Source: Fragilaria crotonensis (lineage: Eukaryota > Bacillariophyta > Fragilariophyceae > Fragilariales > Fragilariaceae). Taken from it: 64,000 nucleotides of DNA. Location of the stretch: the NCBI GenBank assembly GCA_022925895.1, contig JAKSYS010000060.1, positions 62,001 to 126,000 on the forward strand, read 5' to 3'. Of this stretch, positions 29,108-50,564 are shown piece by piece; the stretch's first letter is position 1, and each line of letters begins with the position of its first letter. Made by a program: the position numbers and the translations under genes. The notes under the pieces were generated by a model. The model ran no database searches and was not told where the DNA came from. It was given only the letters and a program-made list of their open reading frames with translations.

Positions 29108-30319
29108 CTACAAGCTCCTTCCTCCTCCCCAGTAGAGGCAACTGTCGCACGTCTGTTGGCAATAATAGTCTGGATCACTGTCCCATCCACAGTAATAATC
29201 TTGAAAGGATGGCCTTGCGGCAAACCATGCGCAGGTTCTGAGCCTTCCGTTGATGTAGAAGGTAGCTGTCGGATCATCAACACATTCACTTCCGGTCGTA
29301 GGAGACGGGGTGGGAGCTCGGGTGGGAGCCCTGGTGGGAGCTCGAGCGCGGGTGGGAGCCCGAGTGGGAGCTCGAGTAGTTCCAGGGGTCACAGTGGGAG
29401 CCCGCGTAGGAGTTCGTAGGGTAGGCGCTGCTGTGGGACTACCACCGCAATATGCAGGCTTCGGGTTGGCCTTTGTCATTGCGCACACTTGGGACTGAAT
29501 CCAAGCGATCTGGCCACTAGTTCGGGAATAGACACCAGGTTTACCGGCAAGTGCGCATCCGTCACCCCAGGATACGACTCCGACTTGCGTGTGAACTCCG
29601 TTGACGATTCTAACAATTGGTCCGCCAGAGTCACCTTGGCACGAATCCTTACCGCCTTGGTCATAACCTGCACAAAGCATGCTGACCTCGTCAATGCCAC
29701 CACCGTACTGCTGGTTGCACTTGCTGTGAGTGACGTAGGGGACGTCGACTTCTTGAAGGAAGTCCGGATAGGTCTGGCCGCCATCTTCGAGATCCCCGAA
29801 GCCGATCACAGTGAGTACATCACCGGCTGTCGGAATCTGGGCGTTGGCATTAAGGGCGACTGGGGTGACTCCCGTCACAGGCGAATTGAGCCTCATGATC
29901 AAAAAGTCGTTCTTCTCTGTGCTAGAGTCGTAATTTGGGTGCTGGACACGCTGCACGATCGTGCGCGCTTGAGCTCCGTCGATGGCAAGGTCGTTCTGGT
30001 AGGCACTCACGATGACGCCAGTAGGGAGGTTGCTACCGTTGCAGTGGGCGGCGGACAGGATGATGTCGGAATGGATGAGACTAGCTCCACAACCCCGCTC
30101 CCACTGGACGAAGTAAGGGTATTCTCCCTTGGTAGCCTGGTTTCCGCCGACAATGCGATTGGTTTGGACCCTGCGAGAGTTGAGGTCATGTTCGTTTTCG
30201 GCACGAGCTTCCTCTTTGTTATGGAGGTCTTCGTTGCTGGCTCGAAGTGTTGCCGTGGCAGAAACAGATTGAACGAGTATGGCGACAATGGCCCAGTTGC
30301 TGAGGAGCAATGATTTCAT
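29108..30319 (-). CDS. Secreted trypsin-like serine protease with PT-rich linker and Cys-rich C-terminal domain
   Basis: S1A-family endopeptidase. From Met at 30319 a signal peptide (MKSLLLSNWAIVAILVQSVSA) and a propeptide lead to the activation site RIVGG (about residue 56). The triad is visible as His in LSAAHC, Asp in KNDFLIMRL and Ser in GDSGGP. Asp in GGKDSCQGDSGG is at the S1 specificity position, so cleavage after Lys/Arg is expected. After WIQSQVC comes a repeated PTRAPT linker of about 50 residues, then a Cys-rich domain (ECVDDPTATFYINGR...CDSC) resembling ShK-type modules common in diatom secreted proteins. The frame extends 19 codons further upstream, but the signal peptide begins at 30319. 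No intron is needed. It is related to the frameshifted protease at 41457-44153. Confidence 0.9.
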   Translation of the reverse strand: MKSLLLSNWAIVAILVQSVSATATLRASNEDLHNKEEARAENEHDLNSRRVQTNRIVGGNQATKGEYPYFVQWERGCGASLIHSDIILSAAHCNGSNLPTGVIVSAYQNDLAIDGAQARTIVQRVQHPNYDSSTEKNDFLIMRLNSPVTGVTPVALNANAQIPTAGDVLTVIGFGDLEDGGQTYPDFLQEVDVPYVTHSKCNQQYGGGIDEVSMLCAGYDQGGKDSCQGDSGGPIVRIVNGVHTQVGVVSWGDGCALAGKPGVYSRTSGQIAWIQSQVCAMTKANPKPAYCGGSPTAAPTLRTPTRAPTVTPGTTRAPTRAPTRARAPTRAPTRAPTPSPTTGSECVDDPTATFYINGRLRTCAWFAARPSFQDYYCGWDSDPDYYCQQTCDSCLYWGGGRSL

Positions 30320-32960
30320 GGTTAGGTGATTTGTTGTGAATACTTCGATTTTATGAGACTTATAACTAACTTTCAAGAATGACTACTGCTTTGATCGGCG
30401 CAGTCTAGCTACTCTAGAGAGTACAAGTACGACTTGAGACAACGATAATGAAGTTAATTTCGTAGCACGACTTCCGTCTTGACCCAGGGAATCCAGAATC
30501 CAGCGAAAGAAGGATGCGACATACATGGTGTCAGTATGTGTACCTGGAACAACGTAAACCCACATGTCGTTTTAATACGTCGTATGCAGATATGTCCCCT
30601 TTTTTTGAGAGGATAAAAATTCTAAATAAATCGGCTTCGTGAAACAAAAAAATGCGTTATCAGTTATCAGTTATCATCAGTTATCAGTTGTCACGTACAT
30701 GTATGTCATACAAGTACGATATTCATACAACTTACCGGCTGGAGTACTACATTACTTGAGTACTGGAATAGTATGATGGCGTATGAAAACAGTAATGAAG
30801 ACGACTACTACAGTATCTGCTATCTGACTAACTAAAGTATCAAACATCTACCGGTAGACTCCATTACGACTGTCAATTCCGATTAAACGTCATTCATGTG
30901 ACGTTTTCGTGACATCAAAGGAATCCTGAAAAAAACTCATCCGTTTTTGATTTCATCGTCCGGCAAATAATCTGGCACGCTCGGATGAGCCGCGCTGAAT
31001 TTTTAATTTGATTTGTACGGGAGCTCCGGTATAATCCTACACATGTACGTAGAAACACGAAGAAACGGAGGTCATGGTATGTCAGATACACTCGAACGCA
31101 TCAGGATGTACACAAAAATACCAATATTGTATTTGTGACAATGGACCCACAACTGTGGGTCCATATCTCTTGTAGTTGACCCTTTTTCTTACTTCCAGTC
31201 TGTGTCTTCTTTAAATGTACCAATTGTAGTAAGTCAGTTGTAATGACAATGGGAGTGAACCTGTTTTGATTGATTTTCAAAGCATTTTTTGATGGGTCTC
31301 ATTTGACAACAGCAACACCGGCGTACGAGCACTGGTATCGACGTACCGTAGAACCAGGTAGTAGCATTGTTTGTCGTACTGTAGTAGTTGCATTCGTATC
31401 GACGTACTGTAGTACCAGGTAGCATGATTTCATATCTACCGATAGTATAGTACCAGGTACCACATTAAAATGGCTTTGAACCAATCTCTTTCTCAAGGAA
31501 CTCTACACAAAAACAATCCATCTTCCATAATTTCACGCTGTGACCTATTATAAAGCTCTCCTTAGTTGACCAATAGAGATATGTTCTGCTGATAGAAAAG
31601 CATTTTAATTGCTCAATTCTCTGAAAAATGCATACTGTAGGTGAGACGTCAAAACATTGTTGCATGACCATTTTTCACATGTCGAGGATGCCCTCCCAAT
31701 TTCTACAAGCTTCAGTTCTGAATGTTTTCATACGGTTGAGAGAATTCCACTTGGCATTGGTTCTACACTGTGTGGTACAAACAGCTCGTACAAAACCCTG
31801 TACCAATACGAATTTTGATTGACAATTTACTCATCAAACTCTTGTGAAAAATATTAAGAATGGAATATAAAATATTATGTATATATGTATAGATATTTAT
31901 ACACAACTTTGAACCAGTAAATGAAAAAGGAAGACTTGCATATCATCGATAGGCAATTCGGATCTTGCTCCAGTACTTTGATCATACTACATTGCTGTTG
32001 CTGACAAGCAGATGAAGGATCAATGATACAAGAACTCTTCGTTGAACATTTATGTTTCTACGGAGATATAGTAATTTGAAACCCTTGTGAAACTATTGGT
32101 TCCAAGCCATTTTTATGTGGTACTCCAGTACTGGACTCGGAGTACACTGTACATGTCAACTGTGCTACTGGAGTACAGTCGATGACCCACTCCTGTAGAA
32201 ATTCGAGTATCAAAAGTTCGTAGTTTTGTCTTCATTGTTTTTGATGAATCGATTTGTGCCGCTGTTGGTAGGAGTAGCTAATCACGAGGTGGTTTTAAAT
32301 TAATTGTACAGGAGCACAAGTACTGAAATCGTTTGTGATATATATGTATACATAGATAGTATTGTAAACAATGCAAGTGTGCTTTCAAATTTCGATTGTG
32401 ACAGGGAGGGCCGGCGGCAGATTTGCGTTGAAAGAATATCTTCAGGAATAATTCTGAAATCTTTCCCTTCTGAAATGGCTTCCACGTGGAGCTAAATTTT
32501 CTACACCGGTTCTAAGTAGTGTGTCGTATGCCGACGTCATTTGAATGACATTTAATCGGATTTCCCTAATACCCGATCTACCGGAAGACCCTACCGTAGA
32601 CCAAGAAAAGAGTGAACTGCTGGGAAGGTCCGGCCACGCACCTCTGCTTGGTATTAATTGATTGTAGAAGCTACGAGAAGAGACGTCATTTTACCGGACC
32701 TCCCTGGAAAGTCTCTTCGCCATATAGACTACAAGTACCACTACAAGTCCATGCACCGAGCTTACAAGTATTCTGCGCAATGCTTGACCAATGATTTATC
32801 AGGGACTTGGAGGTTAGAGTGCATGCTCGGAAATGTAGTACAGTGCCAGAGTAGTATCCAGGTATATCATACTTTCGACATGCACCATGATTTATGCACA
32901 CCCCATCATGCAGCACCTATGGTATGGCTATACTCTAAGTGAGCCGTCGTCTCAAATTTC
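30320..32960. other. 2.6 kb intergenic region, no gene seen
   Basis: Contains clusters of GTAC-type motifs (30690-30860, 31318-31470, 32110-32200, 32720-32930) and a TTATCAGTTATCAG short repeat near 30658-30690. 31320-31450 repeats GTATCGACGTACYGTAG twice with ACCAGGTA after each. No supported coding frame. Confidence 0.55.
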
Positions 32961-35900
32961 TTAACTCTCCTGCATGGCCGAGTCTCGGAGCGCCCGCTTC
33001 TCCTCTAACCACGCCGTCATTCTCTGCTTTAATTCAACAGCCGGCTCCACCATATCCATCGTCAGATACTTTCGGTTGAACGGATCATGAGGGTCATTCA
33101 GCAGAATCTGTGCAATTGTCGAACGGTCCACATGATTGCCGCTCGTGGGCAGAAGCACAGGATCCTTCATGAATGTAAAGACCAAAGGGTCCAGGAATTC
33201 GTCAGGGGCATCGGCGAGCAGCGCATCGTCGACGGCGACAGTCTCGGCGGCTACCTCGACCAACTCTGGGAGAAGAGCGAAGACTTCCATTGATTCCGGG
33301 CTCAACAAGGCCAGCTTTCTGCAGGTTTTCACAGCTTTGGTCACGAGCTCAGAGTTGTAGTAACCGCTCTTGGCACACTCAACTTGGAATTCTGGCAAGT
33401 TGGAAAAAAGAGCGAAGATGGCACACAGGTCTCGGAGCATCTCCTTAGGACGGAAGTTGTACTCCTCTGGATTGTCGACCTGAGAAGTGTAGATTGAGTG
33501 AGATACAGGTGTAGCAACTGAACGATAAGTTTACCAGGCACATATGATGCACAACCAACGAGCTACTCAACCGACATACCTTGAGCTCAAGTCCCTTGGC
33601 CCCAACAAGTTTTGTAAGAACATGCAACAACATGTTCACCAAACGGGTGCACATTTCTTGAAGCATGAATAGATTACGAATATCAGCATCTGTGTTGAGG
33701 TAACCCAACATTTGTAGTGTCTTGTTGCACAAGGGTAGGGCCCTCTTTACTTCACCCTCGTTTTCCTCCAAACGGCTGCTGATTTGTTCGCGCTGTTCCT
33801 CTGTAAGACCCGCCCATTGCTGAGCGTCCGAAATTTGCAGTTGGGCTTGACGAATTTCCGGCAGCTTTTCCATCACACTGGCAATCAAACTGTTCGTTTC
33901 GTTCATGATGCCGTTCGCAAACTTGATGAAACTTTCCTTGTTGGCAGTGATGCATCGGAAGGCAGGACGGTGTTCCTTGCTTTCCCACAAATACTTCAAG
34001 AGCGATGCAATGTTGGCGCGATGCCCCATCTTTTCGTAGTATCCCGTGTGTTCCACTTCTCCATACAACAGCAACAAGGACGGTGCCAACGTTTCTTGTG
34101 CGTACGAGTCTGACAGGAGATACGTCGCTCCTCCCGCCTTAGGATCGGTCGCCACGCCGCTTGGGACTGACTTCCCGTGTCGCTTCTCGTCGCCCGGCAG
34201 GTAAACATCATGAAGGACATCGCCAAGTTTGGCGCGTAGATTGTAGTTGCGAACAAGGTTAGCGAATTCGGGTGACAAGAGCCGGACGACCATACGAAAG
34301 ATATTGCCGTATTCATGGCCAGCTAGAAGCTTCGGCTTGCCTACATGAGGATTGGCCAGGAAGTTTAGAATGTCACAAATATCATCGACAAAGTGTTCGG
34401 GCATAAGCCCCAGCGTCGACGAATCCAATCGCAACAAGAATTGGGCCATGAGGTTGCAGAATCGCAGCGTCGACGCTACATTTTCTTCTTCAAAGAGTGT
34501 CACTTCATTGGCCCGTTGCATGGACAATAGGTTGGCAAAGCTCGGATCCGTTTGTAGGTCCACGTTGCGCTGTTGCAAAGTCCAGGCATTGTGACTGATG
34601 TTGCGAAGCAAGCTGTGGTGAAAAGAAGACAACGGCACGAAGCCTAAATGCAGGGAGCGCGCAGCCAAGAAGAAACAAGTGGGGATGAAACTGTTTTTGG
34701 GTGCGTACGGACTTGATGGGACAGCATCATTTTCGCCAAGGCGCGACACTGCATCGTCGCCTGTGTTGCAAAAAACACCTCCATGATCCTTGGCGGAAGA
34801 CACGAAACCTGCATCAATCAGTGCCGACTTGGACTCGCTGGCGATGAAGGGTTCGCACAATTTCAACAGAACGGAGGATAAATTCATGAGAAGAGGCGTC
34901 TTGCTCACTTTGTTGGGATCAGGGCGCATAGCTGTCGCACCGACATTGACTAACAAGGCATCAGTAAACCATTGCATCACTTGCTGACGTGCGTCGGCGC
35001 CAGCAGTGACAAGGGCTCGGATTAAATTGTTGCAACTGACTTGGTAAGCTGTCAACTGTCGTCGTTGGACACTCAGTGCCTTTTCGACCGCATCCTTCGT
35101 TGCCATTACATTAGGAAAACCAGCAGTGACAGTCGGATGATCTCGCGGACATCCAAGGCGCAAGACAAGACCTAATATCGTGTCCTTTTCGAGTGCTGGT
35201 CCTGATCGCTTGAAATAGCCGTCACCACCCCGATTCATGGATTGCATTATCTGAAAGATTTGACGTTGTCGGAGCGTCGCATCAGCAGGGAGTGTTGGTG
35301 GGGGCGGTACGACGGTTTCCTTCGCTGAGGGACTATCAGCTGGCGGTAACAAGAAAGTGCTCATTTGTGTCATGACGGACGCTGCTTTCTTGTGACAGCA
35401 CATCGCTGTTAAGGCGGTAACCAATTGCAACCCACCACCACCATCGTCACCGCTATCGAGCACGGTATCCATCTTTCGGAGTGCTGTCGTGAAGTACTGC
35501 ACCACACCCGTAATTACATGCTCGAACACTGTCTTATCTTGAGTCACAAGTTCTTCACACAAACAGTAATAAAACGACGAAGTCGTTCCCGAGACGCCAT
35601 GTACGATACTTTGTCCCAAATCGGTGCTGCCCAAGCACCTGGCCAGTTCTGTCGTAGCGTCTTTGCCACCATCGAAGAGGTCGGGGACCATCAATGTCGA
35701 TGCAGCATAAGAAACCGTTTGAGTCATAATCTCCGCCAACAATTCCTCGAGTTCCCCAGGTACTTTGGCCTTGAGTTGTTTCATCAATTTCATTTCTTCG
35801 GCGGCCCGCCGGTGGCTGGCACCAAGGTATTGTATAATATTGGATTGTGTAGTGAGACGGGAGGCCAAAATTTCCGCAATTGTTTGGACGGTAATGTCCG

Positions 35901-36393
35901 TCGAGTTGATGTCCACCACGACGCAAGTGTGGTCGGCTACCGTAGTGGTAGGTGCCAAGACCACCTGCAAGACCTTGCGGACCAAAATTTCCTTCTTGCG
36001 CTGAATTTTGCGAGCGGGATCAAGAGGAGACATTGGTTTTTTAGGTTTCTTCGGTTGGGGTTGTTGATCTCCTGATTGGGAGGGTTGCTTCTTCTCAGAA
36101 GTTGTTGCGGTTGGCAATACCTTGGCAGCAGGTTTACGGTCGTCTTCAACGTCCATGGCTATTGGTGGGTCTGAATGTTCGGCAGGAGTGGAGGGGGTAT
36201 CGACTTGCATTGCACTCGGAGTATCAGGAGTTGCATTCGTTTGTCCCATGATTCTTGCCAAGCGACGAGCTCGGATTTCTTGTTCGGTCAATGCAGGCGA
36301 AGGTCCGTCGCCATTCGTGGTACTCTCTTCATTGCTATTCGTTCCTGTAGAGCGAAGGGCCCAACTGGCCAGGTCAGGGAGGAAGCCACTCAT
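32961..36393 (-). CDS. UFD2: U-box ubiquitin chain elongation factor E4 (UFD2/UBE4B type), two exons
   Basis: E4/E3 ubiquitin ligase that extends ubiquitin chains on substrates, typically with Cdc48/p97. Exon 1 is 36393-33580 and exon 2 33479-32961, joined by a 100-nt phase-0 intron (GTATGT...CTTCTCAG), giving 1110 residues, near the family length. The N-terminal region is Pro/Ala/Lys rich with low complexity. The UFD2 core follows and includes [17 protein letters not shown] and [19 protein letters not shown]. The C-terminal U-box reads [18 protein letters not shown] and then [21 protein letters not shown], where the invariant Pro and Asp of the E2-binding surface are present. Met at 36408 is an alternative start; MSGFLPDL at 36393 is preferred. 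Confidence 0.94.
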
Positions 36394-36408
36394 TCTGATA
36401 TTGTGCAA

Positions 36409-37074
36409 AGTCTACACAATGAGTATTGAATGAGAGATGTTTACACGTAGCGAAAGCCTTCAGCTCTCAGCTCTTAAGAATGCAGGACGCGACGACACGA
36501 CTGATCCTCGGCTTGGAAGGCCAACGAAGAATCCACAAGTCCCATTCCTCAGGTCTCAACTATATACCGGTATGCATGTACTGAACGAACCAGTCCACCA
36601 GTAATAGTGCCGGTACCCGGAGCAGTATGCTACTCCAGTACTCGGAGTACTATACTGTACCACCAGTGTTTGATATCTATGGTTGGTATCATACTATGTC
36701 TGATGGATACTTTCTGGATTCTGAAGAGAAATCGATGGGAGCGTTTTAGTACTCGTATCTGCTACTCCGAGTAGATGGTACAAGTATGTACTGTAGACTC
36801 TGTGAGTGTCATGTGAGATTTTGAGTAAATGCGTTTTACAACTTCTTATGATTTTAACGTCTAAAAACGTCAAGAGGATCCCGTTTGGCTCCAGTTTATC
36901 TCGGCACCTGTGCATATGAAACAGGAACATCGAACAACATCTCTGTAATCAATAACGTCAACAGCACACACACAGATCGATCCTTTCCACATCTGAGTTC
37001 ATTCATCATTCGTTCCTTTATCCAAGTGAAAGCAATCCACCGAGAATTCTTTCGAAGCAACGCTTAGAACTGAC
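36409..37074. other. Divergent promoter region between the E4 ligase and the TULIP-PqiA gene
   Basis: About 670 bases separating two genes transcribed away from each other. GTAC-type motifs are dense from 36560 to 36810 (for example TACTCCAGTACTCGGAGTAC). No coding frame is supported. Confidence 0.5.
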
Positions 37075-40000
37075 ATGATGAAGCCAGTATTGCTTTTGAG
37101 CCTCCTGGCTGCCGCTTTTCACGCAACATCAGGACAAGAACACCCGAGTTCTACCAGTCGCTATGATCCCCTCGTGAACTGGCTCTCAAACTTGTCCGTT
37201 GCTATCCCAGATCAGCATTTTAAGGAGTCAGTTTTCAGTCTCGCCATTCGAGACATGACATGTTCAAAGTTTGCTGTTGAAACCATCAATTCGACCTATA
37301 CACCGTCATCCAGTGTTGAATCGGAGAATCCCAGCCTGGACTTGGCAGTAGCAGGGATTTCTGCTACATGTCAAGGTACATACCACACGACAGGTCTCTC
37401 TGGACAAGTTTCAGCCACTGTAGCTTCGTCTTCTTCCGAAAATCCTCTGCAATTGAGTCTTGTGTTCCAATCCAATACAACAAGCTCCGGCGTTCGCATG
37501 GCCACCAGCGTCTCGACACAACTGTGCGAAACGAATCTAAACGTTGCAGAGCTTCATTTTACTGGATCGATATCCGCCAAATTGATCAATCTCTTTCGAA
37601 GTGAAATTCGGGGCTATGTGTCAAAGGCACTCTCGACGGAACTGTGTCCCGTGTTGGACGATACCATCGACACACAACTGACCAACGTATTGCAAACAGC
37701 TGATCGCTACATGATGGGATTGATTCCGAACGAAACGAAAACACCACTTCATCGTAAGAAAGCTTCACCTGCCTGGAACTGGAATCGTGATGCACCCTTG
37801 GTACCCGCGATGCTGCGACTGCTGAATCGTGCCATCCTTGAACCATTTCTAAACGAAGGCATTGTCTTGAAGATATTGGAAGCCGTCTTAGGGCATGACG
37901 TCGATGATAACTGTGGTTATTTCTTCCGGGGTTGGAATGGTCTACTGGAGGAATTGACGAAGGGTGCAATTGAGTTTCAAGTTCCCAACCTTGCCTGGCT
38001 TCGTAACATTTCCATTATCATTCCGAACTATGCCAGCATCTCGTTACTTCCTAAACATGTGCGCATTTCAGGAATCGACAAGCTCGATCAACTCCAATTT
38101 CTGTTCCCTATGAATAATACCAACTTGTTCGGGACAAAATTGGTAGTACCTTACGGCATGGATGTGTCGTTGGAAATGGATATTGCAGTGTCGGAAACAA
38201 CAGGGGGTACCTTTCAAGGCGATGACTTGCTGGAATCCTTTCAAGTGTCCATCAATACTTCGTCTTTGGACTTCAAGAGCTCCTTGTCACTGGATTTGAA
38301 TTCAACTCGCATGAGGACCACTACCATGAAGCATGTGCTCTCCGCTGTAACACGTGACACTCCAACCGACCTAGGGTGCTCCTTGTCTCCCATTGGAACC
38401 TTTGTAATTGATTCCCTTGTTGCCAACGTTGAAATTCAGTCGATTTCGTTTCTCCCCAAAAACGCAAATGCCAGTCTCGAACACGACATGGATACCATGA
38501 TCAATAACTTTCTTGCACTCTTCTTGACCGAGTATGATGACCTTGTCACGTTGGCCTTCGCGGGTCTGTTGAATGGCCCAGCCAAACACCTCGCGGAAAC
38601 GGCTTCGAACAGTTGGATGCAAAACCTGATTCAAGCGTTGCTGCCGAATGGTGCTGATTCTAGTTGCCGAGCGTCTGGGGTGGTCAATGCGACGGCACCT
38701 GATTTTTTCAACTTTTCGTCTCAAGCCACGTTTTTGAAACGTTTCAATGACTTTCTCAACGACAGTCGCGACCCAATGAATGAATACTTGGAATGTGTTA
38801 CCGACGTTGTAACGACCCACATTCAAAGTGCTTCACCAACCGTAGAATTCGGAGGCGCGACGCTGCAGCTTCAGAACCTGGCGATTGATAGTGTCGGCAG
38901 TATCGAAGGTATCGGTAAGGCGCAGTTTGCAAGTCCTGCGTCGTTCGCTCTGTGATGTTTGTCGTGTGACTAACTAACCCACACCCTTATCCCGCATAGA
39001 ATTGCTGTCTCCAGAAGCTGATGGATATCACTTGTCTAATAGTCTACAGTATGGTTTCTGCAGAGGCAACGAGACTGACAATCAAAATGTGACTTGTTCA
39101 GGACCTATATTGTCGGCCACCGCACTGATGTCCATACCTTCCATGAACGTGAACGGGGCAGCGAACTTTACTGCAGCCTTGGGGTCCATTCAGGAGTCAG
39201 TATCGGCACTCTTACTATACGACTTGAACCAGCTGAAGAACCTTTCCTTGTTAGAGCTTCTATCGTGCCAGAATTGTTTGGCTCAGCCAGCCCTCGAAGC
39301 AGTTCTGTACGCAGCTCCCCAAGTGATCGACCACATCTCTTTGGGGATCGAAGCAGAGATGAAAGGCTACACTGCCGAACCAATGTACTTCCGACTTGAT
39401 TCGGCGTCGTACGAAGCAGCGACCTCCGCAATAGAGTCAGCCATTTCATGGTTCCAGATGAGTGTTGTAGAGGTTATCAACCAAACAGTCTCACAACTTA
39501 TCAAGACTGCGCAGGCAAGTTGCCACGTGCTACATGATGATCATGAAAAGAAAGGCTTGACAGCAATCCTCTCTGTCATCGTCTTTTTGCTGCCATTGTA
39601 TATTCTCTCGCACATCGCCTACCTCGCGTTTTGCCAAGGAAGCGGTCCGGGTAGTACCGACGAAGACGAGCCTATTTTTGAATTGGAAGACAGGGTTAAT
39701 CGGAGTGAAGCAGGCGCCATCGATGTTCTCTTGGAGAAGAATGCCTCCCTCATGACAAATGATTTAGCTCCCAATGGTTTTCGGCATGTTTTCCCGGTAC
39801 TTCTCATAGCAACAATGGCGTTGCTGGCGGTCAGCAATCTCAGTGTTGGTGCAACTGTTGACTTATCGGTGACAGTCAATAACGTACCCAGTGTGATTCG
39901 TTTGCCATCTCTGTTTGCCTTCAGCCTAGGAAATACAATTCACGAGATGTACCAGGCTGGAATCTATGTACTTCTTTTCATTGTGGTTATCTTCAGTGGT

Positions 40001-41167
40001 GCCTGGCCATACTTGAAGTTGCTCATGATGCTTTGGGCCTGGGTCGCCCCTGAGTCTATGTTTAGTCTCAAGAAGCGTGGCAAACTTCTCTTCTCTCTGG
40101 ATGCACTCAGCAAGTTTTCGCTTGTGGACACATTTGTCTTGGTAATTATGATGGTTTCGTTCCGATTCCATCTCGCGTTTGGCAGCTATGCCGTCGTTGA
40201 TGTCTTCGTCAACCCACACTTCGGATTCTATGGATTTCTCATTGCCACGACAATCTCACTTCTCGCTGGACACGTCGAGCTACACTTTCATCGACGTTGT
40301 GCGAAACCAGAGACTATGTTCGCCGACAATACGCGCTCATCGCTCTTTTCGTACCACTACCCGTACGATGGGAGAAAGTACAATTTGTCGGGGTTGTTGA
40401 AGGCAGGTCTCGTTGTGTGTATGACTGCCACCTTCGCCCTCCTAACGATCGGCAGCCTAAGGAAGAGTTTCACTTTTGAGTTCGGAGGACTGGCTGGAAA
40501 ACTCCTCGGAGAAAACAGCACGAAATCATACTCGTTGATATCCATCGGGACTTCCATTTCAGGGAGTGTGGAAGACTCAGATGGTCCAGGGATTATGTTC
40601 CTCCAAGTGGTTTATTTTTTCTACGCTTGCATCATGCCGTGTGTATGCTTGCTAGCGTTGTCGATTCTAATGGTCGTCCCCATGGACTGTGCACAACAAG
40701 AACTCTGGTTGACGGTGGCAGAAGTGGGCAATGCTTGGTCTGCATTGGAGGTGTTCGTCATGTCTATCGTTGCTGCTGTGTTTGAGATATCGACATTCGC
40801 ATCATTCATCGTTGGTCATAAGTGTGACATTCTCAACCAGATATTACACGACCAATTCGATGACCAATTTGACGGGGACGATGTTTGTTATTCTCTGAAT
40901 GCCAGCGCCTCGTCAAATATGTGGCTTCTTGTGTTGGGAGTCGTTTTGAATTCCGCCCTCGTATCGACCCTGCTGAGGATGGCTCAAACTGTGGTGGAGG
41001 CACGTTCCCACTCGAGGGATGACGCGTCCTGCGTGTTGCACCTGATAGCGACGACTTCGTTGAGCAAATGGTTGCTTGAGCGCATTGCGGAAGACCCACT
41101 GACTGTTCCGTTGCTAAGCGACTCCCAAGAAGCTGTGCAGTCAGAACTCGACGACGGAGGGCTGTGA
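37075..41167 (+). CDS. Large membrane protein: secreted TULIP/BPI-like half fused to a tandem PqiA-like membrane half
   Basis: Exons 37075-38914 and 39000-41167 are joined by an 85-nt intron (GTAAGG...CCGCATAG, branch-like CTAACTAAC), giving 1335 residues in frame. A signal peptide (MMKPVLLLSLLAAAFHATSG) leads a roughly 750-residue luminal/extracellular region. Part of it, SEIRGYVSKALSTELCPVLDD, resembles the BPI/LBP-type TULIP lipid-binding fold. After a first membrane segment (LSVIVFLLPLYILSHIAYLAF, about residue 800) come two PqiA-like modules of several membrane helices. Module one has AWPYLKLLMMLWAW and LDALSKFSLVDTFVLVIMM; module two has VAEVGNAWSALEVFVMSIVAAV. Bacterial PqiA/LetA has the same two-module layout and helps move lipids with MCE proteins; its zinc-binding Cys pairs are not seen here. 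A role in lipid movement is inference. Confidence 0.75.
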
Positions 41168-41456: not shown

Positions 41457-44153
41457 CTAATGTCCTTGAGTGGCAGGATAGAAGTAATCACAGGTGTTAC
41501 ATGTTTTCTTGCACGATGCCGCGACGTCAATGAACTTGCACAGATAGCCGAACAAAGGGTTCTCGCTGAGCCAAACACAATCTTTGCGACCAATGAGTTC
41601 ATCGATGAATAAGGTATCGTCGTTCGAATCTGCACATGCGTTGGAAGTCGGTGCGACACTGGAAGTCGTTGGAGTGGGAGTCGGCGCTGGAGCCGTGAGA
41701 GCTGGTTGTGGTGTAATCACGGACACTGGAGCATTGGATTCAGCGACTGGCTCACGAGTCAGGGGCGTTGGCTCCGCGACAGGCGCAGTGGAAGGCTTGA
41801 CTAAGGTCATTGATGGTGCATCAGAACCCACATCAACTGGCGGAGACGTCGCAGGAGCACCAGAATCCACCTGAACAGGTGAATCTGAGGAGTATTTCGG
41901 TTGTGTCACCGACACTGGAACTACTGGTGGCCACGTTAAGGGTGTCGGAGGCTCTACCGGTGGCACAACGGGCGCATCAGAACCGGCCACAAGAGCGGAG
42001 CAGTTACAGTTACAGTTACAGGAGCATCGGAACCCACATGAACAGGCGCATCTGTTGAGGTCGTTGGTTGATTGGTGGACGGTGCGGCGACTGGCTCCGA
42101 CGTTGAGGCTGTCGGAGGTTCGACCGGTGGCACAACGGGCGCATCAGAACCGGCCACAACAGGCGGAGCAGTTACAGTTACAGGAGCATCGGAACCCACA
42201 TGAACAGGCGCATCTGTTGAGCATGTCGGTTGTGTCACGGACACTGGAGCTACTGGTTCCCACGTTAAGGGTGTTGGAGGCTCCACCGGTGGCACAACGG
42301 GCGCATCAGAACCGGCCGCAACAGGCGGAGCAGTTACAGGAGCGTCGGAACCCACATGAACAGGCGCATCTGTTGAGCATGTCGGTTGTGTCACGGACAC
42401 TGGAGCTACTGGTTCCCACGTTAAGGGTGTTGGAGGCTCCACCGGTGGCACAACGGGCGCATCAGAACCGGCCACAACAGGCGGAGCAGTTACAGTTACA
42501 GGAGCATCGGAACCCACATGAACAGGCGCATCTGTTGAGCATGTTGGTTGTGTCACGGACACTGGTGCGACTGGTTCCCATGTTAAGGGTGTTGGAGGCT
42601 CCACCGGTGGCACAACGGGCGCATCAGAACCGGCCACGACAGGCGCAGTCGTTACAGGAGCATTGGAACCCACATGATCAGGCGTACCTGTTGAGGTCGT
42701 TGGTTGATTGGTGGACGGTGCAGCGACTGGGTCCGACGTTATGGATGTCGGAGGTTCTACCGGTGGCACAACGGGTGCATCAGAACCGACCACAACTGGC
42801 GAAGCAGTTACAGGAGCGTCAGAATCCACGTGAACAGGTGAAGCTGTGGAACATTTGGGTTTGACATCGGATACGGGAGCGATTGTTTGTCGTGGCAAGG
42901 GTGTAATTGGTTCTACCGGTGCATCAACGGGCACAGTGGATGGTGGCGTAGTAGTCAGGGAACCACCTCCACTACCAGCGGCGGGAACAGCAGAAGCAAC
43001 TTGACTTGCTTCATTACAAAAGTCTGGAGGGTTGCTGTTGTTATCGCATAGCTGCTGCTTGATCCAATCGATTATGGGAACAGCATCGGGAGGCGTGGAA
43101 ATTCGACTGTCGATAGGACTTGGAACGATGCCAGGTTGATCGTCGGCACAGTAGTCTGGAGGGTTGCTCGAAAGATCGCAAATTTGTTCTTTGATCCAGT
43201 CGATTTCACCGGAAACGCGGCTGTACACTCCGGGCGTGTCTGGCCTTGCGCATCCGTCGCCCCAACTCACGATGCCAACCAGAGTGAAGGTCTCCCCATC
43301 GGCGATGACAAGTGGCCCACCAGAATCACCTTGACAGCTGTCCTTGGCCCCTGCACCGACTCCAGCACACATCATGATGTCGCCATTGATGCGACCGGGA
43401 TAGTTGCTTTCACACGTTGCAGTTGGGATATAGCCGAGGTCAACCTCCTGCAAGATAAAGGACCCAGCGCCATCCTCTGACGTATCCCCGTACCCCACGA
43501 CCGTCAGTGTCTGTCCGTCTGTGGGAGACTCATTGCTCTCGTTGAGTACGGCTGGCTTTGTTGTCCACCCGGGCATGCAACTTCATGACGAGGTAGTCGT
43601 ACGCAAAGTCGGCTTCGGGGCGTGGGTCGTATAGTGGATGGGGTCTTCGTTCCGTGATTGTCCTCTCATAACCACGCCCTCCATCAATGCCGATACCAAG
43701 TTTACGAGACGACCCGACGTAGACGGTGTTCGAAACAATCACATCACTATGAGCTGCGGATACGATGATATCTGAGCAGGACGGAATATTCATCATTCGC
43801 AGCGAAGGTTGATAGGTTTGGGAAGGTTAGTATTGACGCGAAGGTTAGAGCAGACTCGTTTGAGTGAAACTCACCATCGTGGACCAGGGCTGCACCGCAT
43901 GCATCCCATTCAACAAAAAACGGATACTCTCCAATGCCGGCATCGTCTCCTCCAACAATGCGAGAATTTCCTGTAGCATTGTCATTGCCGTGTCCGCCTA
44001 GATTGAATGAAAGACATGTCAGTGCCAAGAAACAAATGGTTGAGCGCTTTGGTTTGCAAACTTATCAAGCGTCTCACCGTGATTGGTGCCACGAAGCCTA
44101 GATGCCCCCACAGATGTGATAAGGGCCCACCATGATGCATAGATAAACTTCAT
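41457..44153 (-). pseudogene. Trypsin-like serine protease with long repetitive linker, three exons, two frameshifts
   Basis: Exons 44153-44078, 43997-43875 and 43771-41457 use introns of 80 nt (GTGAGA...CAATCTAG) and 103 nt (GTGAGT...GCTCAG) with matching phases. A signal peptide starts MKFIYASWWALITSV; activation site RIVGGDD; His in VSAAHSD (the usual Cys after His is Ser); Asp in AYDYLVMKL; Ser in GDSGGP with KDSCQG before it. A Val/Pro/Thr-rich tandem-repeat linker and a Cys-rich ending (CVWLSENPLFGYLCKFIDV...CDYF) follow. One extra base near 43557-43562 (AAA run on the minus strand) and one missing base near 41992 break the frame; with both repaired it would be 837 residues. Conserved coding on both sides of each break means either recent loss or sequence error. 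The DIRS element starts about 200 bp upstream. Confidence 0.75.
41930..42860 (-). repeat. Tandem repeat, about six units of 156/162 bp, in the protease linker
   Basis: The landmark CATCTGTTGAG recurs at 42049, 42211, 42367 and 42529, spacings of 162, 156 and 162. A related unit starts near 42686 and diverged ones flank both sides. The 6-bp difference is one fewer TTACAG. Units encode 52 or 54 residues (GSDAPVVPPVEPPTPLTW, then STDAPVHVGSDAP) and are nearly identical at the centre, suggesting recent unequal exchange. Confidence 0.9.
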
Positions 44154-45115: not shown

Positions 45116-46309
45116 TCAACCGGGGGTGAGGCGGAAGGAGCCGCCCTGCAACATGGCGGCGGAAAGGCCGGTCATGACCGGTTGCGCCTGAACGTGGAGA
45201 TATCTGTACATTTCGTCGGAACGCCAGCGGCCAACCATGCGGATGCGGTCGCTGTCCACGCCGGCGCACAACAACGCCATCGCACCGCCGGCGCGAGTCG
45301 AACGCACCGAGACATCGGCAGGGGTGTAGGCGGGATCGGGATGCAGGTGGAGGACCGAACGAATACGTGAGGTGATGTCGGAGGGCGAAATGTACTGAAA
45401 GGAGGCCTGAGGGGAAGACTTGACCGCATTGAGTGGAGTGTCGGTGGTGGCGCCTTGCGCACGCAAGGCAAGGATGCGGGCTGCAAGGGCCGTTACGGGG
45501 CATAAAGATGGGTGCCCCGACCGCCCGTGACCGATGCGTTCATTTCGGACGCCGTTCTTCTGTTGCGTGAAGGTGAGAGTCGCGAACGTAGCGGCGCGCA
45601 GGTCAGCAGCCGGACATGCAAGGTGGTCAAGGGCTCGCGAGCCAATCCACAACTGGACGTCGCCCATACGGAAGAGATGGGTGCTCGAAGGCGGGCCTAA
45701 GTATTCGCCGGGACGTAAAAGAAAGTAGAAACCAACGATGAGGCAGTGGGCTGTCGCAAGGGCGATGGGGGTGGCTTCGCCTTGGGCCAATGCCCAGACG
45801 TGGGCTACCACTCCAAGCGGGAGAGGCTTTACACGCGATGGAGGAGCGTCGGCGCGTTGCCATGCTTGCAAGAGGGAGGTGAGCCGGAAGTCGACCGTAC
45901 CGTGAGCGGTTAGACGAGGGTCCGGGGCCCCCAGCCGGGCGTGCGCCTGGCCCACCGCTCGTAGGGCATCCTCCACCGTGCGAGCTCGGACGGGCCGACG
46001 TCCGGGCGCAATGGTTCCGGTGCGATAGCGGTGGGCGAAGAGTTGCAGAAGAGGGACGGAGTCTGCATTGGTAGTGCGGAGGGGATCGACGCCCAAGCTG
46101 GCACAGAAGGTCGACCAGAGCTGCCACGCGGTGGCAGCAGAGGCGTGTCGTTGACGAGAGACTCGAGTGGCACACGTTTGTTGGATAGCGCTCCAATCAA
46201 GGTAGCATTGGTGGCGGGTGCCAGGGTCAGCATCCGCCAAGAGGTCGTCTGTGGGTACAGTGTGTCGAATTGGGTGAGTAAAGCGGAATCGGACAGGTCC
46301 CAACGTCGG
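45116..46309 (-). CDS. DIRS tyrosine recombinase (no usable ATG)
   Basis: Integrates the element by tyrosine recombination. The N-terminal core-binding part includes ASAATAWQLWSTFCASLGVDP. The catalytic part has LLRPGEYLGPP (first Arg), RSTRAGGAMALLCAGVD (second Arg, with Arg where many families have His), VGRWRSD and the nucleophile region MYRYLHVQAQ. The frame opens after a TAG near 46310; the first Met is only about 215 codons in (FRMGDVQLW), beyond the N-terminal domain. Since the frame overlaps pol by 400 nt in a different phase, a -1 ribosomal frameshift between about 46309 and 46200, or non-ATG initiation, is needed for full-length product. Stop at 45116. Confidence 0.9.
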   Translation of the reverse strand, partial: PTLGPVRFRFTHPIRHTVPTDDLLADADPGTRHQCYLDWSAIQQTCATRVSRQRHASAATAWQLWSTFCASLGVDPLRTTNADSVPLLQLFAHRYRTGTIAPGRRPVRARTVEDALRAVGQAHARLGAPDPRLTAHGTVDFRLTSLLQAWQRADAPPSRVKPLPLGVVAHVWALAQGEATPIALATAHCLIVGFYFLLRPGEYLGPPSSTHLFRMGDVQLWIGSRALDHLACPAADLRAATFATLTFTQQKNGVRNERIGHGRSGHPSLCPVTALAARILALRAQGATTDTPLNAVKSSPQASFQYISPSDITSRIRSVLHLHPDPAYTPADVSVRSTRAGGAMALLCAGVDSDRIRMVGRWRSDEMYRYLHVQAQPVMTGLSAAMLQGGSFRLTPG

Positions 46310-48321
46310 CTAGCATCGTCTGCCATGGCGTTCACGGGACCCGGGATATAGTTGTGCCGCGCGACATAACGGTGTGCGCGCTGGTGCAGTGCATTGAAAC
46401 GGAGGAGGTGCGAACGTGCGGCGACAGAGGTGGCGGACCCTGTTGTGGACCAAGCAACTGCTGCGCGATTGTCACTTGCAATCCACATAGTGCGTTCCCG
46501 CACGTCCCGAGTCGCAGCGAGGATGTCTTTATGTGCAATGATAGCTGCGAGCTCCAGGTCTGAGATGGATATGGACCCCCGTGGTTGCTGGGCGGTAACC
46601 AAGGCATTGCCAATGTGTGGCGGAAAACGCTGTCGCCAAACAACAGGAGGCGCGGTGGGGTCAAGCATGTCAAACCAAACGCCGCCCATCCCTGCTTGAC
46701 AGGCATCGCATGCACCAACGTCTGAAGGCGAGGTCGGGACGAGTTCGTGAAGACGCGTGGGTCGGTCGTGCACCGAGGCCACGAGCGCGAGAAAATCGCG
46801 CGCCAGGTCATGGATGCGCTGGGTGATGCGTACTCGGTGTCGATCCGTGTGCGCGAGTGCTTCCTGAAGCACCGAAAACAGACCCCTGGTCCCGGGAAGC
46901 GCTGGGGACATGGACCGAAGCTCCCCCAAAACTTGGTGCCATTTGTGTACCGAGAGACGCTTGGCTGGTGGAAGTAGCCACGCGAGTACTTCCCGAATTC
47001 GTACCAACCTGTGTGCAGGGAGATGTAGGGTTAGGGCTGCGGAGTCGATATCCCACCCAAGGATGCGCTTGTAGGTGGCCCAGCACGCATCCCCCTTTAG
47101 CATCTTCTTGGTGGAAGCCGGTTCCTTGCGATAAACTGGATCCGCAGAGGTGAGAGGTCGCAGGACTTCGTCGATTGCTGACAAAGTGGCGCGCATCACC
47201 TTTTGTTGCTGTCGGTGCGTCTGCGCCATAAGAAGAAAATCGTCGACGTAAACGTCGACTTGTGCCACTGGTCGTCGCCCTCTGCCGCTGATTGTAGGCG
47301 GCATGGCGACCACGCTGCTGCTCTCCCGTGATATGCCGGCGTCGTCTGGAGGTGTAGCTGCGACTGCCTCCAGGCGGTGGGCCTCGTTGAGACGCGACTC
47401 GTTGCGCGTGGACAACATCACGTTGGCACGATCGCAAGCAGTTTCAGTGAGCACCGTGAAATACGGTGGCGATTCCACCCAGCCCATGGGCAGTGCAAGG
47501 GGAAACGCTATCAACGGTTTGCACCCTGGAGAAGTAGGTAGTATTACGCCTAATTTGGGAACATCCGCTATCTGAACCCATACTCGGTAAAAACCATCGG
47601 CCACATCTATCTTTGCCATGTAGACAGGGCCATACCTCGGATCCGCATGCACGAGTGTTGTAAGAACTCGTTGCAGTGCCTTGCCAAACTGCATGGCTTC
47701 GCGAGGTGCCCATTGAACCGTTTCGCTGTTTACACCTGAGAAAGTGTAGTCCACGATTAATCGTGGGCGTCGATCGCGTTGGGGGACGACACCCAAGGGC
47801 GAGACTCGCAAGCGCTGGAGGTCCGCCACTGCTTCGTACGGAAGAACCACCCAATAGCCTTGCTGACAAAACTCTAGCATTTCCTCAGCCACAAACTTGC
47901 GCTCGCTCTGCGATGATTTGTGAGGCCCTCGCTGTACAGCGGCGAGGCAACCCTTCCTGCTCCATGGTGCGGTTGACGTAGGTACACTCGCCCCGCGCCG
48001 CCCTAAGTGCTGCAACAGTCGTGCGGCCTTGTGTGGCAGCGCAACGACGTCGGCGGCGATGTTTGAACATCCCCGGACTTCCGTTATCGTTCGATGCCAC
48101 CCGTTTGTCCGAAGCCGCTCCGCATAGTGCTCCGCTAACTTACCGAGTGATTGCTCTGCCTCCGATGCTATTTCTGCAGCCTTCCGCTTGTTCGTCGTCC
48201 TTGTTTGTGTCCTCCGTGACGCTTCCTCCGCCGGCCGTGCTGCCCAGGGGGGGGCTTCGAGTAGCCAGGCTGCCTCGGGCTGTGTCTCGGCGACACGACC
48301 TGAGTCAACCTGGCCACCCCG
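45910..48321 (-). CDS. DIRS pol: reverse transcriptase and RNase H, in frame with gag
   Basis: The 804-codon frame is continuous with gag and separated only by the UGA at 48322-48324. The N-terminal 100 codons (QTRTTNKRKAAEIASEAEQ) contain no ATG. Reverse transcriptase marks are LIVDYTFSGVN, YMAKIDVADGFYRVWVQ, LPMGWVESPPYF and the catalytic VDVYVDDFLL. RNase H follows with GACDACQAGMGGVW (Asp), SISDLELAAIIAH (Glu) and WIASDNRAAVAW (Asp). The end overlaps the recombinase by 400 nt. The product copies element RNA to DNA in cytoplasmic particles or the nucleus. It is intact. Confidence 0.92.
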   Translation of the reverse strand, partial: RGGQVDSGRVAETQPEAAWLLEAPPWAARPAEEASRRTQTRTTNKRKAAEIASEAEQSLGKLAEHYAERLRTNGWHRTITEVRGCSNIAADVVALPHKAARLLQHLGRRGASVPTSTAPWSRKGCLAAVQRGPHKSSQSERKFVAEEMLEFCQQGYWVVLPYEAVADLQRLRVSPLGVVPQRDRRPRLIVDYTFSGVNSETVQWAPREAMQFGKALQRVLTTLVHADPRYGPVYMAKIDVADGFYRVWVQIADVPKLGVILPTSPGCKPLIAFPLALPMGWVESPPYFTVLTETACDRANVMLSTRNESRLNEAHRLEAVAATPPDDAGISRESSSVVAMPPTISGRGRRPVAQVDVYVDDFLLMAQTHRQQQKVMRATLSAIDEVLRPLTSADPVYRKEPASTKKMLKGDACWATYKRILGWDIDSAALTLHLPAHRLVRIREVLAWLLPPAKRLSVHKWHQVLGELRSMSPALPGTRGLFSVLQEALAHTDRHRVRITQRIHDLARDFLALVASVHDRPTRLHELVPTSPSDVGACDACQAGMGGVWFDMLDPTAPPVVWRQRFPPHIGNALVTAQQPRGSISISDLELAAIIAHKDILAATRDVRERTMWIASDNRAAVAWSTTGSATSVAARSHLLRFNALHQRAHRYVARHNYIPGPVNAMADDASRRWDLSDSALLTQFDTLYPQTTSWRMLTLAPATNATLIGALSNKRVPLESLVNDTPLLPPRGSSGRPSVPAWASIPSALPMQTPSLFCNSSPTAIAPEPLRPDVGPSELARWRMPYERWARRTPGWGPRTLV

Positions 48322-48327
48322 TCAAGC
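48316..48327 (-). promoter_or_regulatory. Candidate stop-codon readthrough site, UGA-CGG, between gag and pol
   Basis: On the minus strand the context is GCT TGA CGG GGT. UGA followed by CGG is one of the two classic leaky contexts described in plant RNA viruses, usually helped by a downstream RNA structure; the next bases are GC-rich. gag and pol are in the same phase (48322 and 45910 differ by 2412, 804 codons), which is the arrangement needed for readthrough. Confidence 0.65.
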
Positions 48328-50520
48328 GTGCGTCCCCGTGGCATTGGGCGCTGCGAGGTGTTCGCGCACGAAGGTGAGAAGCCGCGTACGTTCTCCCGGA
48401 GTGGCAAATGGTTGATGGGTGGCGCGCCGGCCGCAATTGGGGAAACAACCACCTTTTGTCCACCATGCCACACAAAACTCGTGTCCGGAATCATTGGTGG
48501 GAGGACGGTGCTCGCGAAGTATGGTGCGTGTCCCCCCAGCGCGTAAGGTGATGGCGGTAAAGTCGTTATCCGATATTGGGTTTGAGACGCGGGCCACGGC
48601 GGTGCGTGCGGTATCCCCGCTCAGAGACGACACACCGGTGCGATTGGATTGACCGCCGACCGTAGCGCCACTGGGCGAAGCACCGCTACCCATGCTGCTG
48701 GCCTGACCTGTCGTCATTGCAGCAGTTGGGCCTGACTGTGGAGCCGATTCCAGGTACTCGACTGGAAGATCCATCCAGTTTGTCGACTGGTGAAAGGTGC
48801 CTCGGCGCAACTCCTGTAGCATGGGGGCGAAGTTAGGGACTTCCACTCCGATCACGCTATCCACTACGTTTGTGGATATTTGTTGTAGGTACTCGTGCGC
48901 ATTAACCTGCACAGCGCGTACAATACGTGCGTGGTACGTGCGTGTTATGTTTTGGACTTGTGCCAATTCGCGATATCGGTCTGTGACGAATGGGGCGATG
49001 TTCTGCAGTCCGACGGCTGTGCTCCATAGTGCTTCCACGTATGGGTGTGTGGGCCCGACGCCTTGAAACAGGCACTGACACAAGACCGCATACCGGAAGA
49101 GTGTGACACATACCTCCGTGATGTCTTGGGGGAACTTGATCTTCTCACCTTCCCGTATCGTTCGGATGTCGGCGAGGCTTGCGTTCTGTTCTCCCTGGAC
49201 CAACTGGTTTGCCACAGCTGATGAATTAGTCACTTGGAGGTGATGAGCCTTACCGGCATACGCCACCAAAAAGGGCTGACAACCCGTGGAGAGGTCATCT
49301 GCACTGTGTCCAGGGAACTGGAATCCGACAATCATCTGCTTCAGGGCGGTCGTTACCACTGGCACATACAGCTCAGTTGACAACCCTCGCGCCATGCAGA
49401 CTTTTTGCATTTCTTGCGTGAGCAGTGTATGCTGCTCACTCTTGTGACAGTTTGAGAGACGTTGCCAGATGGGCGCAACGTCGTCGGGGCTGGCCACATT
49501 ACAGAAGCGAAGGAGGACCCGGTGCGTCTCCTTATAAGCGTCAACTATGGACTTCGTCTCTCGTGCTGGACGTCCTCGATCCTGCTGGTCGTCGCCACCC
49601 TCGCGCTGTTGTGTGAGGGCGCGCAACGCTCCGATCAACGTGGCCGTGGTTCCTGTGTTGCCCACACCTTCCGTCGCAGTCAGGGCCGGCAAGTCTGTTT
49701 GTACTTTCTGCGTGACGTACTGGTACACTTCCGGCGGCATGTGAAGTGGAACAAGTGGATGGTGCACACTCGGAAGTGCATTTTGTGCTCCTCCACCCCC
49801 CCGTGCTGTACACGCGGCTCGGAGCCACACTACGACGTCGTTGCAGCTCTCGATAGCGTCGTCCGCTCTTATGGCACCCACAATTTCTTGATAGGCTTGC
49901 TTTGCCGTGATCCTGCGACGATGTACAATCAAGGCAGCATATCGGCCCGGAAGCAACTGTGTGTTCCGGGGGCGAACTACTTCAGTTTCCGGGTCCAATT
50001 CAGTAAACGGTCCTAGTGGGGTTCGAGGATCCACCCAGGCCGGCAGCAAGGCTTCCATAGCGGCCACTGTGGGCACTCGAACTGGCGTATTTACCAGATG
50101 AAACATCGATGCCGGGGTTTCAACTGCCGGGTACTGATGGGGCAAGATGTCTCCCAACAGGCCCAATACCTTATCGTGGAAACCAGTTGGCTCATCGCCT
50201 GGCATGTCCATGAAGCGGAGTAGCCGATGCACAATGGATACCTCCGGAAGACCGTCTAGTCCGTTGATCATGCACAGGAATGCCATGGGCTGTCGGTCAC
50301 TCATGGCTACAGTCTGGTCGCGTAGCTGGATTGGTACGGGGATGACTCCTTCCCCTGCGAAACGATATCCCGCGAGGTATCCTGCGGTGCGATCCGGCGC
50401 CGGATTGTTCGCTGCGTCCGCGTACAGTTCGCGGTACGTGCGGGGCGCCTCCCGTATCGCTCCCGCGGGTGGAGGCGGTGCCGGCACCGCGACAGCTGCG
50501 GGTTGAATAGGATGGGCCAT
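48322..50520 (-). CDS. DIRS gag-like protein with CCCH-type zinc knuckle
   Basis: A 732-residue ORF starting at ATG 50520, 44 bases after the 5' repeat B. The N-terminus is Pro/Ala rich (MAHPIQPAAVAVPAPPPPAG). Near the C-terminus lies HEFCVAWWTKGGCFPNCGRRATH, whose spaced Cys, Cys, Cys and His fit the zinc finger found in other DIRS gag proteins. The rest is largely helical with no enzymatic motif. It should form the nucleoprotein particle. It ends in UGA directly before the same-phase pol frame. Confidence 0.85.
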   Translation of the reverse strand: MAHPIQPAAVAVPAPPPPAGAIREAPRTYRELYADAANNPAPDRTAGYLAGYRFAGEGVIPVPIQLRDQTVAMSDRQPMAFLCMINGLDGLPEVSIVHRLLRFMDMPGDEPTGFHDKVLGLLGDILPHQYPAVETPASMFHLVNTPVRVPTVAAMEALLPAWVDPRTPLGPFTELDPETEVVRPRNTQLLPGRYAALIVHRRRITAKQAYQEIVGAIRADDAIESCNDVVVWLRAACTARGGGGAQNALPSVHHPLVPLHMPPEVYQYVTQKVQTDLPALTATEGVGNTGTTATLIGALRALTQQREGGDDQQDRGRPARETKSIVDAYKETHRVLLRFCNVASPDDVAPIWQRLSNCHKSEQHTLLTQEMQKVCMARGLSTELYVPVVTTALKQMIVGFQFPGHSADDLSTGCQPFLVAYAGKAHHLQVTNSSAVANQLVQGEQNASLADIRTIREGEKIKFPQDITEVCVTLFRYAVLCQCLFQGVGPTHPYVEALWSTAVGLQNIAPFVTDRYRELAQVQNITRTYHARIVRAVQVNAHEYLQQISTNVVDSVIGVEVPNFAPMLQELRRGTFHQSTNWMDLPVEYLESAPQSGPTAAMTTGQASSMGSGASPSGATVGGQSNRTGVSSLSGDTARTAVARVSNPISDNDFTAITLRAGGTRTILREHRPPTNDSGHEFCVAWWTKGGCFPNCGRRATHQPFATPGERTRLLTFVREHLAAPNATGTHA

Positions 50521-50564
50521 TGCTTAATACTGGGAGTGTTAAGTGGAGTGCACGTCCTTAACCT

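Follow-up and report, generated by a model that had tools for sequence, protein, structure and literature searches.

A two-exon diatom gene joins a putative BPI-like secreted half to two PqiA-like membrane modules in one chain

We analysed a 64,000-nucleotide stretch of the diatom Fragilaria crotonensis (assembly GCA_022925895.1, contig JAKSYS010000060.1, positions 62,001 to 126,000, forward strand), hereafter called the window. Positions 37075-41167 on its plus strand form one two-exon gene that encodes a secreted half followed by a membrane half in a single chain. The membrane half is homologous to PqiA, a bacterial membrane protein, and the same order of parts recurs in a paralog elsewhere in the genome. 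The secreted half starts with a unit that weakly resembles BPI, a protein of the TULIP type, and continues with stretches that repeat each other. We propose, with a probability of roughly 0.5, that the protein is a single-chain lipid mover or presenter in which a TULIP-like array stands on a PqiA/LetA-type base.

The two halves are joined by splicing. Removing an 85-nt intron at 38915-38999 leaves an open frame of 1,335 residues. The donor (GTAAGG at 38915) and acceptor (CATAG ending at 38999) are good, and a branch-like stretch, TGACTAACTAACCC, lies between them; the clean 85-nt junction drawn in the initial annotation is upheld, as is the single chain it implied. Because other in-frame GT/AG pairs also keep the frame open, for example a 91-nt pair from 38909, the choice of intron rests on signal quality and on one paralog, C327. 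With two placed introns of 69 and 62 nt, C327 encodes 1,517 residues that align with the window protein over nearly the full length, with the parts in the same order (21% identity, E 9e-48). No break occurs in the long C327 frame at the intron site of the window gene, nor in exon 2 of the window gene at the site of the second C327 intron. Intron positions thus differ between the two genes, so that an exon of each crosses the intron site of the other. We take this as the best available evidence that both halves belong to one chain. The secreted halves of the two proteins, compared on their own, are more similar than expected by chance, scoring 146 where 200 shuffles gave a mean of 46 and a maximum of 89. 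By eye, residues 1-20 of the window protein read as the N-terminal signal peptide that had been noted before.

The membrane half contains two PqiA-like modules. Translated from 39002-41164, it matches the PqiA family PF04403 at E 5.5e-10 and 39.8 bits, with its two stretches together exceeding the curated cut-off of 23.8, which bears out the earlier assignment of a two-module PqiA-like half. A six-frame search of the genome (62.1 Mb in 881 contigs) places these stretches at window positions 39926-40255 and 40589-40819, one per module. To compare the modules with bacterial ones individually, hhalign profiles of five paralogs were set against 22 bacterial two-module proteins, taken from 34 loci (L108-L141) by keeping those with a frame of at least 380 residues and a match past residue 150 and dropping the other 12; E-values refer to single pairs. 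Module 1 aligned with the bacterial C-terminal module at 97.6% (E 2.9e-12, score 86.3) and with the N-terminal module at 92.6% (score 52.1). The corresponding values for module 2 were 91.0% (E 1.1e-6, score 51.5) and 88.3% (score 47.2). Since the preference of module 2 is undecided, we do not claim that the module order is swapped relative to bacteria. Sequence-by-sequence matching found module 1, with its P-x-x-K and S-x-x-D motifs, in all five paralogs. Set against E. coli PqiA and LetA alone, the membrane alignment (A2) gave a weak profile-profile match (6.7%), and a PDB search with it returned unrelated chains only, at E 0.42 or worse.

The relationship to bacterial PqiA is one of domain family. 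E. coli PqiA has five CxxC starts and LetA has four, motifs that we take to be zinc ribbons; the membrane halves of the window protein and C327 have none. The PqiA/LetA subfamily model TIGR00155 scores the window protein at 12.5 bits (E 0.055) against a cut-off of 260.35. As PF04403 is matched, CxxC is absent and TIGR00155 is far off, we file the protein as a member of the PqiA domain family and not as a PqiA/LetA orthologue.

Hydropathy suggests how the chain may cross the membrane. Eight segments score at least 1.6 (residues 802-820, 880-898, 937-955, 983-1001, 1079-1097, 1155-1173, 1200-1218 and 1254-1272), and a ninth, placed at 1021-1039, scores 1.51. We read the nine as one extra helix followed by two sets of four (1+4+4), so that each module would have four helices and both of its termini in the cytosol. 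With the N-terminus taken to be outside, lysine and arginine account for 19 of 214 residues in the predicted cytosolic loops versus 7 of 149 in the exoplasmic loops of the membrane half. This hydropathy-based topology supports an exoplasmic position for the secreted half, matching the periplasmic side on which MCE proteins lie in bacteria.

The secreted half is where the TULIP assignment has to be made. Exon 1 matches PF01273 (LBP_BPI_CETP) over residues 144-197 at E 4.5e-4 and 20.4 bits, and residues 21-310 scanned alone reach E 6.6e-5 and 23.1 bits, both under the cut-off of 28.8. In favour of the assignment, the window gene (E 1.1e-3) is the only PF01273 match at E<=1 in the six-frame search of the genome. 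In PDB (177,635 sequences searched) the argument lies in the consistency with which BPI and LBP return as the sole or main matches, not in any single E-value. Searched by phmmer at E<=1, the secreted half matched LBP, two BPI entries and the unrelated junctophilin-2. A profile built from the secreted halves of the window protein and C327 matched the two BPI entries only (E 0.31). At E<=10, a profile (A7) of the N-terminal unit, T1, from three paralogs matched nothing but LBP and two BPI entries (E 0.53-0.84), and with it the aligned region widened to BPI residues 73-185. Within T1, Cys151 and Cys191 align colinearly with cysteines of LBP and BPI, and the spacing of the pair is 40, 40 and 39 in the three T1 units; in BPI the equivalent pair forms a disulfide. 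Cysteines 63 (37261-37263) and 99 (37369-37371) are also invariant in the three units and suggest a second disulfide, one that has no tie to BPI. Farther along the chain, stretches T2 and T3 align with each other by hhalign (score 33.3 at 70% probability, where 100 column shuffles reached 20.7 at most). The secreted part thus contains a repeat, with the link to BPI running through T1 alone. A TULIP identity has weak sequence support for T1, direct for about the first 200 residues only, and we infer it for the units that follow. Of the TULIP/BPI region that the initial annotation had assigned to residues 1-780, a BPI-like N-terminal unit survives in this weak form, and nothing beyond it is directly supported.

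The window gene belongs to a small family. PqiA-like sequence occurs at six loci: C571 (the window), C327, C775, C383 and C32, found with PF04403, and C187, found by protein search. A weak match at C618 (E 0.013) was dropped. Secreted arrays accompany three of the six. At C187 (L142:2083-8461) a complete secreted array is followed by a hydrophobic stretch, then by a second array that lacks the BPI-like T1, and last by the PqiA half. The frame changes there at three places (near L142 3140-3201, 3591-3694 and 5699-5789), which may reflect assembly indels or decay; the locus could encode one giant protein or two genes, or could be a decaying copy. In the 9.9 kb around each of C775, C383 and C32 we found no secreted array, only matches at E 0.54 or worse. 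C775 (L020:5591-6972) and C383 (L021:3780-5156) are shorter PqiA-like genes with nearly identical translations and may be alleles in a heterozygous assembly. The PqiA-like protein encoded at C32 (L023:4253-6280) carries a long acidic stretch in its N-terminal part.

In bacteria PqiA-type proteins work with MCE partners, and we searched for these as well. The MCE domain PF02470 had no match in the genome at E<=0.01, a search that diverged or intron-split genes could escape, versus matches in 4 of 14 control genomes; the result would fit a system that does without MCE. SMP domains (PF10296) matched neither this genome nor any control genome, so that search is uninformative. No confirmed relative emerged from viral contigs searched with the secreted half and with alignment A2, or from prokaryote genomes searched with A2. 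With E. coli PqiA/LetA as query, the best 80 of 197 confirmed loci were all, judged by title, in enterobacteria and their near kin.

A fusion of this kind is already known. In a review, Wong & Levine 2017 (PMC5507252) report CETP/BPI proteins of protists and amoebae that carry a PqiA domain at the C-terminus and have 9-12 membrane helices, and suggest that the CETP/BPI and PqiA parts handle the same lipid. The novelty of the fusion was overstated in the initial annotation. As in the window protein, the BPI-like secreted part of that fusion comes first and PqiA last, and our estimate of nine helices falls within their range; the PqiA part and helix count of the window protein agree with their description, while its CETP/BPI part is sub-threshold. 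Section 2.1 of that paper gives the fusion two sentences and a figure, without a named example (PMC5507252). Screening by title and abstract start, in a literature thin on subscription papers and preprints, found no other paper on a PqiA-TULIP/BPI fusion. What is new here is the diatom family with its gene-structure evidence, the T2/T3 repeat units behind the BPI-like unit, the variable number of arrays including a two-array locus, the loss of zinc ribbons and a genome in which no MCE was found.

Three known systems resemble parts of the protein. Like the window protein, E. coli PqiA and LetA (YebS, PDB 9n8w/9n8x, known here as a PDB match) have two PqiA modules of four helices, and in bacterial PqiA both termini are described as cytosolic (PMC5561183). 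Diatom module 1 has counterparts of the P-x-x-K and W-S-x-x-D motifs in their second module, with F in place of W in the window protein. Unlike them, the window protein has no CxxC zinc ribbons, an extra first helix, a fused secreted half and no MCE partner that we could find. BPI (1ewf, 1bp1) and LBP (4m4d) have the cysteine pair in common with it and match it colinearly, over residues 73-185 of BPI; unlike them, it lies below the Pfam cut-off, has no recognisable PF02886, is longer and is fused to a membrane half. In how it might work, the closest comparison is LetAB/PqiABC, a membrane base with lipid-binding modules on the exoplasmic side whose number varies: three MCE modules in PqiB and seven in LetB, according to PMC10897342 and PMC12436622. 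The diatom protein would differ in having TULIP-like units for MCE rings, and one chain for a complex of separate subunits.

We propose the following mechanism. The signal peptide would bring the chain into the secretory pathway, and the TULIP-like units, one BPI-N-like and then at least two mutually repeating stretches, would come to lie on the exoplasmic face of a membrane. There the chain would be held by the extra helix and two four-helix PqiA/LetA-type modules. The PqiA-like base would take lipid from the membrane or give lipid to it, and the fused TULIP array would hold or carry that lipid across the aqueous gap, the role ascribed in bacteria to LetB or PqiB beside LetA or PqiA. Lipid as the substrate we infer, as we do the direction of transfer, contact between the halves and the identity of the membrane. 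For PqiA/LetA with their MCE partners, a role in lipid transport has been proposed (PMC5561183, PMC10897342 and PMC12436622).

If correct, this mechanism would mean that one kind of base works with two different lipid-binding folds, MCE and TULIP, and diatoms would gain a candidate protein for moving lipid outside the cell or among endomembranes. How PqiA or LetA hands lipid to its partner seems to be open in these papers, where base and tunnel are separate proteins (PMC5561183, PMC10897342, PMC12436622). Because both parts are fused here, the chain sets the ratio and proximity of base and array, so contact and transfer become testable in one protein. A bolder version is possible, though we would bet against it: a family of single-chain diatom machines for lipid transfer, each with a LetA-like base on which TULIP arrays that vary in length replace the MCE tunnel, and with two-array C187 as a long-reach form.

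A number of observations weigh against the single-chain lipid mover, some in the membrane half and, as set out further below, others in the secreted half. Besides the missing CxxC motifs, the predicted cytosolic loop 1174-1199 contains no lysine or arginine, making the charge rule uneven, and three N-x-S/T sites lie in loops assigned to the cytosol. In C327 the secreted half itself contains a hydrophobic stretch (411-429, score 1.68). The module 2 region, present in all five paralogs, is weak in C187, C775 and C32, where the best scores are 8.6, 10.4 and 5.4 bits. Structure models do not help. AlphaFold2 run on the exon 2 protein (721 residues) as a single sequence gave a mean predicted local distance difference test score (pLDDT) of 39.9, and a model of window 39764-41068 built with 13 enterobacterial PqiA rows reached 50.2, the better part being module 2; the alignment behind it (A6) misplaces the first helix of that module. 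Searched against PDB with Foldseek, this second model gave 18 matches at E<=10, the best at E 2.5, with LetA 9n8w absent.

The main rival, unlikely in our view yet to be taken seriously, is that the PqiA-like half serves only as an anchor or sensor. The secreted half would then capture environmental or bacterial lipids, for scavenging or for recognition of the lipopolysaccharide (LPS) type as in LBP/BPI, with no transfer through the membrane part. The proteins of solved structure that come nearest, BPI and LBP, bind LPS according to Wong & Levine, who also describe the PqiA domain as a plasma-membrane anchor (PMC5507252); the loss of zinc ribbons and the poor preservation of module 2 in some paralogs point the same way. 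Set against this, module 1 with its motifs is retained in all five paralogs compared, the module 2 region is still found in all of them, weak in three, and the extra helix, TM0, would already anchor the chain.

It is improbable that the secreted half is some other secreted fold and the BPI match a chance local similarity. The case for this begins with Pfam, where the PF01273 score stays under the cut-off and the match spans only about 54 residues. Among the three T1 units only that of the window matches. PF02886, the C-terminal BPI domain, is not among the Pfam matches of the window protein, and its six-frame search was empty in this genome and gave no match in the control genomes either. The PDB E-values across searches run from 0.12 to 0.87, none significant alone; one of the matches is junctophilin-2, and the T1 piece of C187 alone has no PDB match at E<=10. 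What speaks against chance is that profile A7, run at E<=10 against the whole PDB set, was answered by two BPI entries and LBP only, that its aligned region grew, that the cysteine pair is colinear with BPI/LBP, and that the BPI-PqiA pairing has a published precedent (PMC5507252).

Lower still we rank the reading that the membrane protein derives from PqiA but serves a purpose unrelated to lipid, such as ion or metabolite handling, and is regulated by its secreted half. Lipid transport by PqiA itself is called putative in PMC10897342/PMC12436622; however, phospholipid is bound by the MCE proteins that partner PqiA and LetA in bacteria (PMC5561183), and the BPI-like partner here likewise points to lipid. 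Least credible of all, and very improbable, is that the gene model fuses two neighbouring genes by mistake, the first with its stop at 38955 and the second with its ATG at 39128: both frames are open without splicing, but the splice signals are good and include a branch-like stretch, the homologous region of C327 reads straight through that point, and the second frame has no signal peptide, yet its first ~145 residues align with the C327 secreted half.

Table 1. Features of the window gene and its product (positions in the window)
Feature	Position	Strand	Basis
Whole gene, 1,335 residues, two exons	37075..41167	+	open frame after splicing; end-to-end paralog C327
Exon 1: signal peptide and most of the secreted half	37075..38914	+	from ATG at 37075
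Signal peptide, residues 1-20	37075..37134	+	read by eye
BPI-N-like unit T1, residues 21-310 (boundary approximate)	37135..38004	+	PF01273 E 6.6e-5, sub-threshold; profile A7 against PDB
Cys151, first of the BPI-type cysteine pair	37525..37527	+	aligned with LBP/BPI; kept in all three paralog T1 units
Cys191, second of the BPI-type cysteine pair	37645..37647	+	aligned with LBP/BPI; invariant in 3 of 3 T1 units
Repeat unit T2, about residues 324-462	38044..38460	+	hhalign, T2 against T3
Repeat unit T3, about residues 587-716, interrupted by the intron	38833..39307	+	hhalign, T2 against T3
Intron, 85 nt, GTAAGG ... TGACTAACTAACCC ... CATAG	38915..38999	+	sequence and frame; C327 frame crosses this position unbroken
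Exon 2: rest of the secreted half, helix TM0 and both PqiA modules	39000..41167	+	stop at 41167
Predicted first membrane helix TM0, residues 802-820	39563..39619	+	hydropathy 2.32
PqiA-like module 1, about residues 869-1047; WPYLK (949-953), LDALSKFSLVD (980-990)	39764..40300	+	PF04403 at 39926-40255; hhalign
PqiA-like module 2, about residues 1076-1283; AWSALEVFV (1192-1200)	40385..41008	+	PF04403 at 40589-40819; hhalign

Trypsin-family genes flank the gene on both sides, at 29111-30382 and 41957-43582, both on the minus strand; the latter has a long repetitive tail rich in Pro, Thr and Val. The upstream neighbour at 33448-36411 (minus strand) encodes a Ufd2-type ubiquitin elongating factor core (PF10408, E 1.2e-87). 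At 45913-50523, also on the minus strand, lie two long adjacent open frames of 803 and 733 residues with a G+C content of about 58% and no Pfam match at E<=1e-4.

Elsewhere in the genome, the silicon transporter family, which is typical of diatoms, has 19 matches, the best at E 4e-193; among the 14 control genomes, one bacterium matched, below the cut-off. These matches point to a diatom as the probable host, in keeping with the mention of stramenopiles in the initial annotation. Three silicon-transporter units share one open frame of 1,456 residues at C97:29749-33762 (L144 and its neighbourhood), and two share a frame of 1,008 residues at C771.

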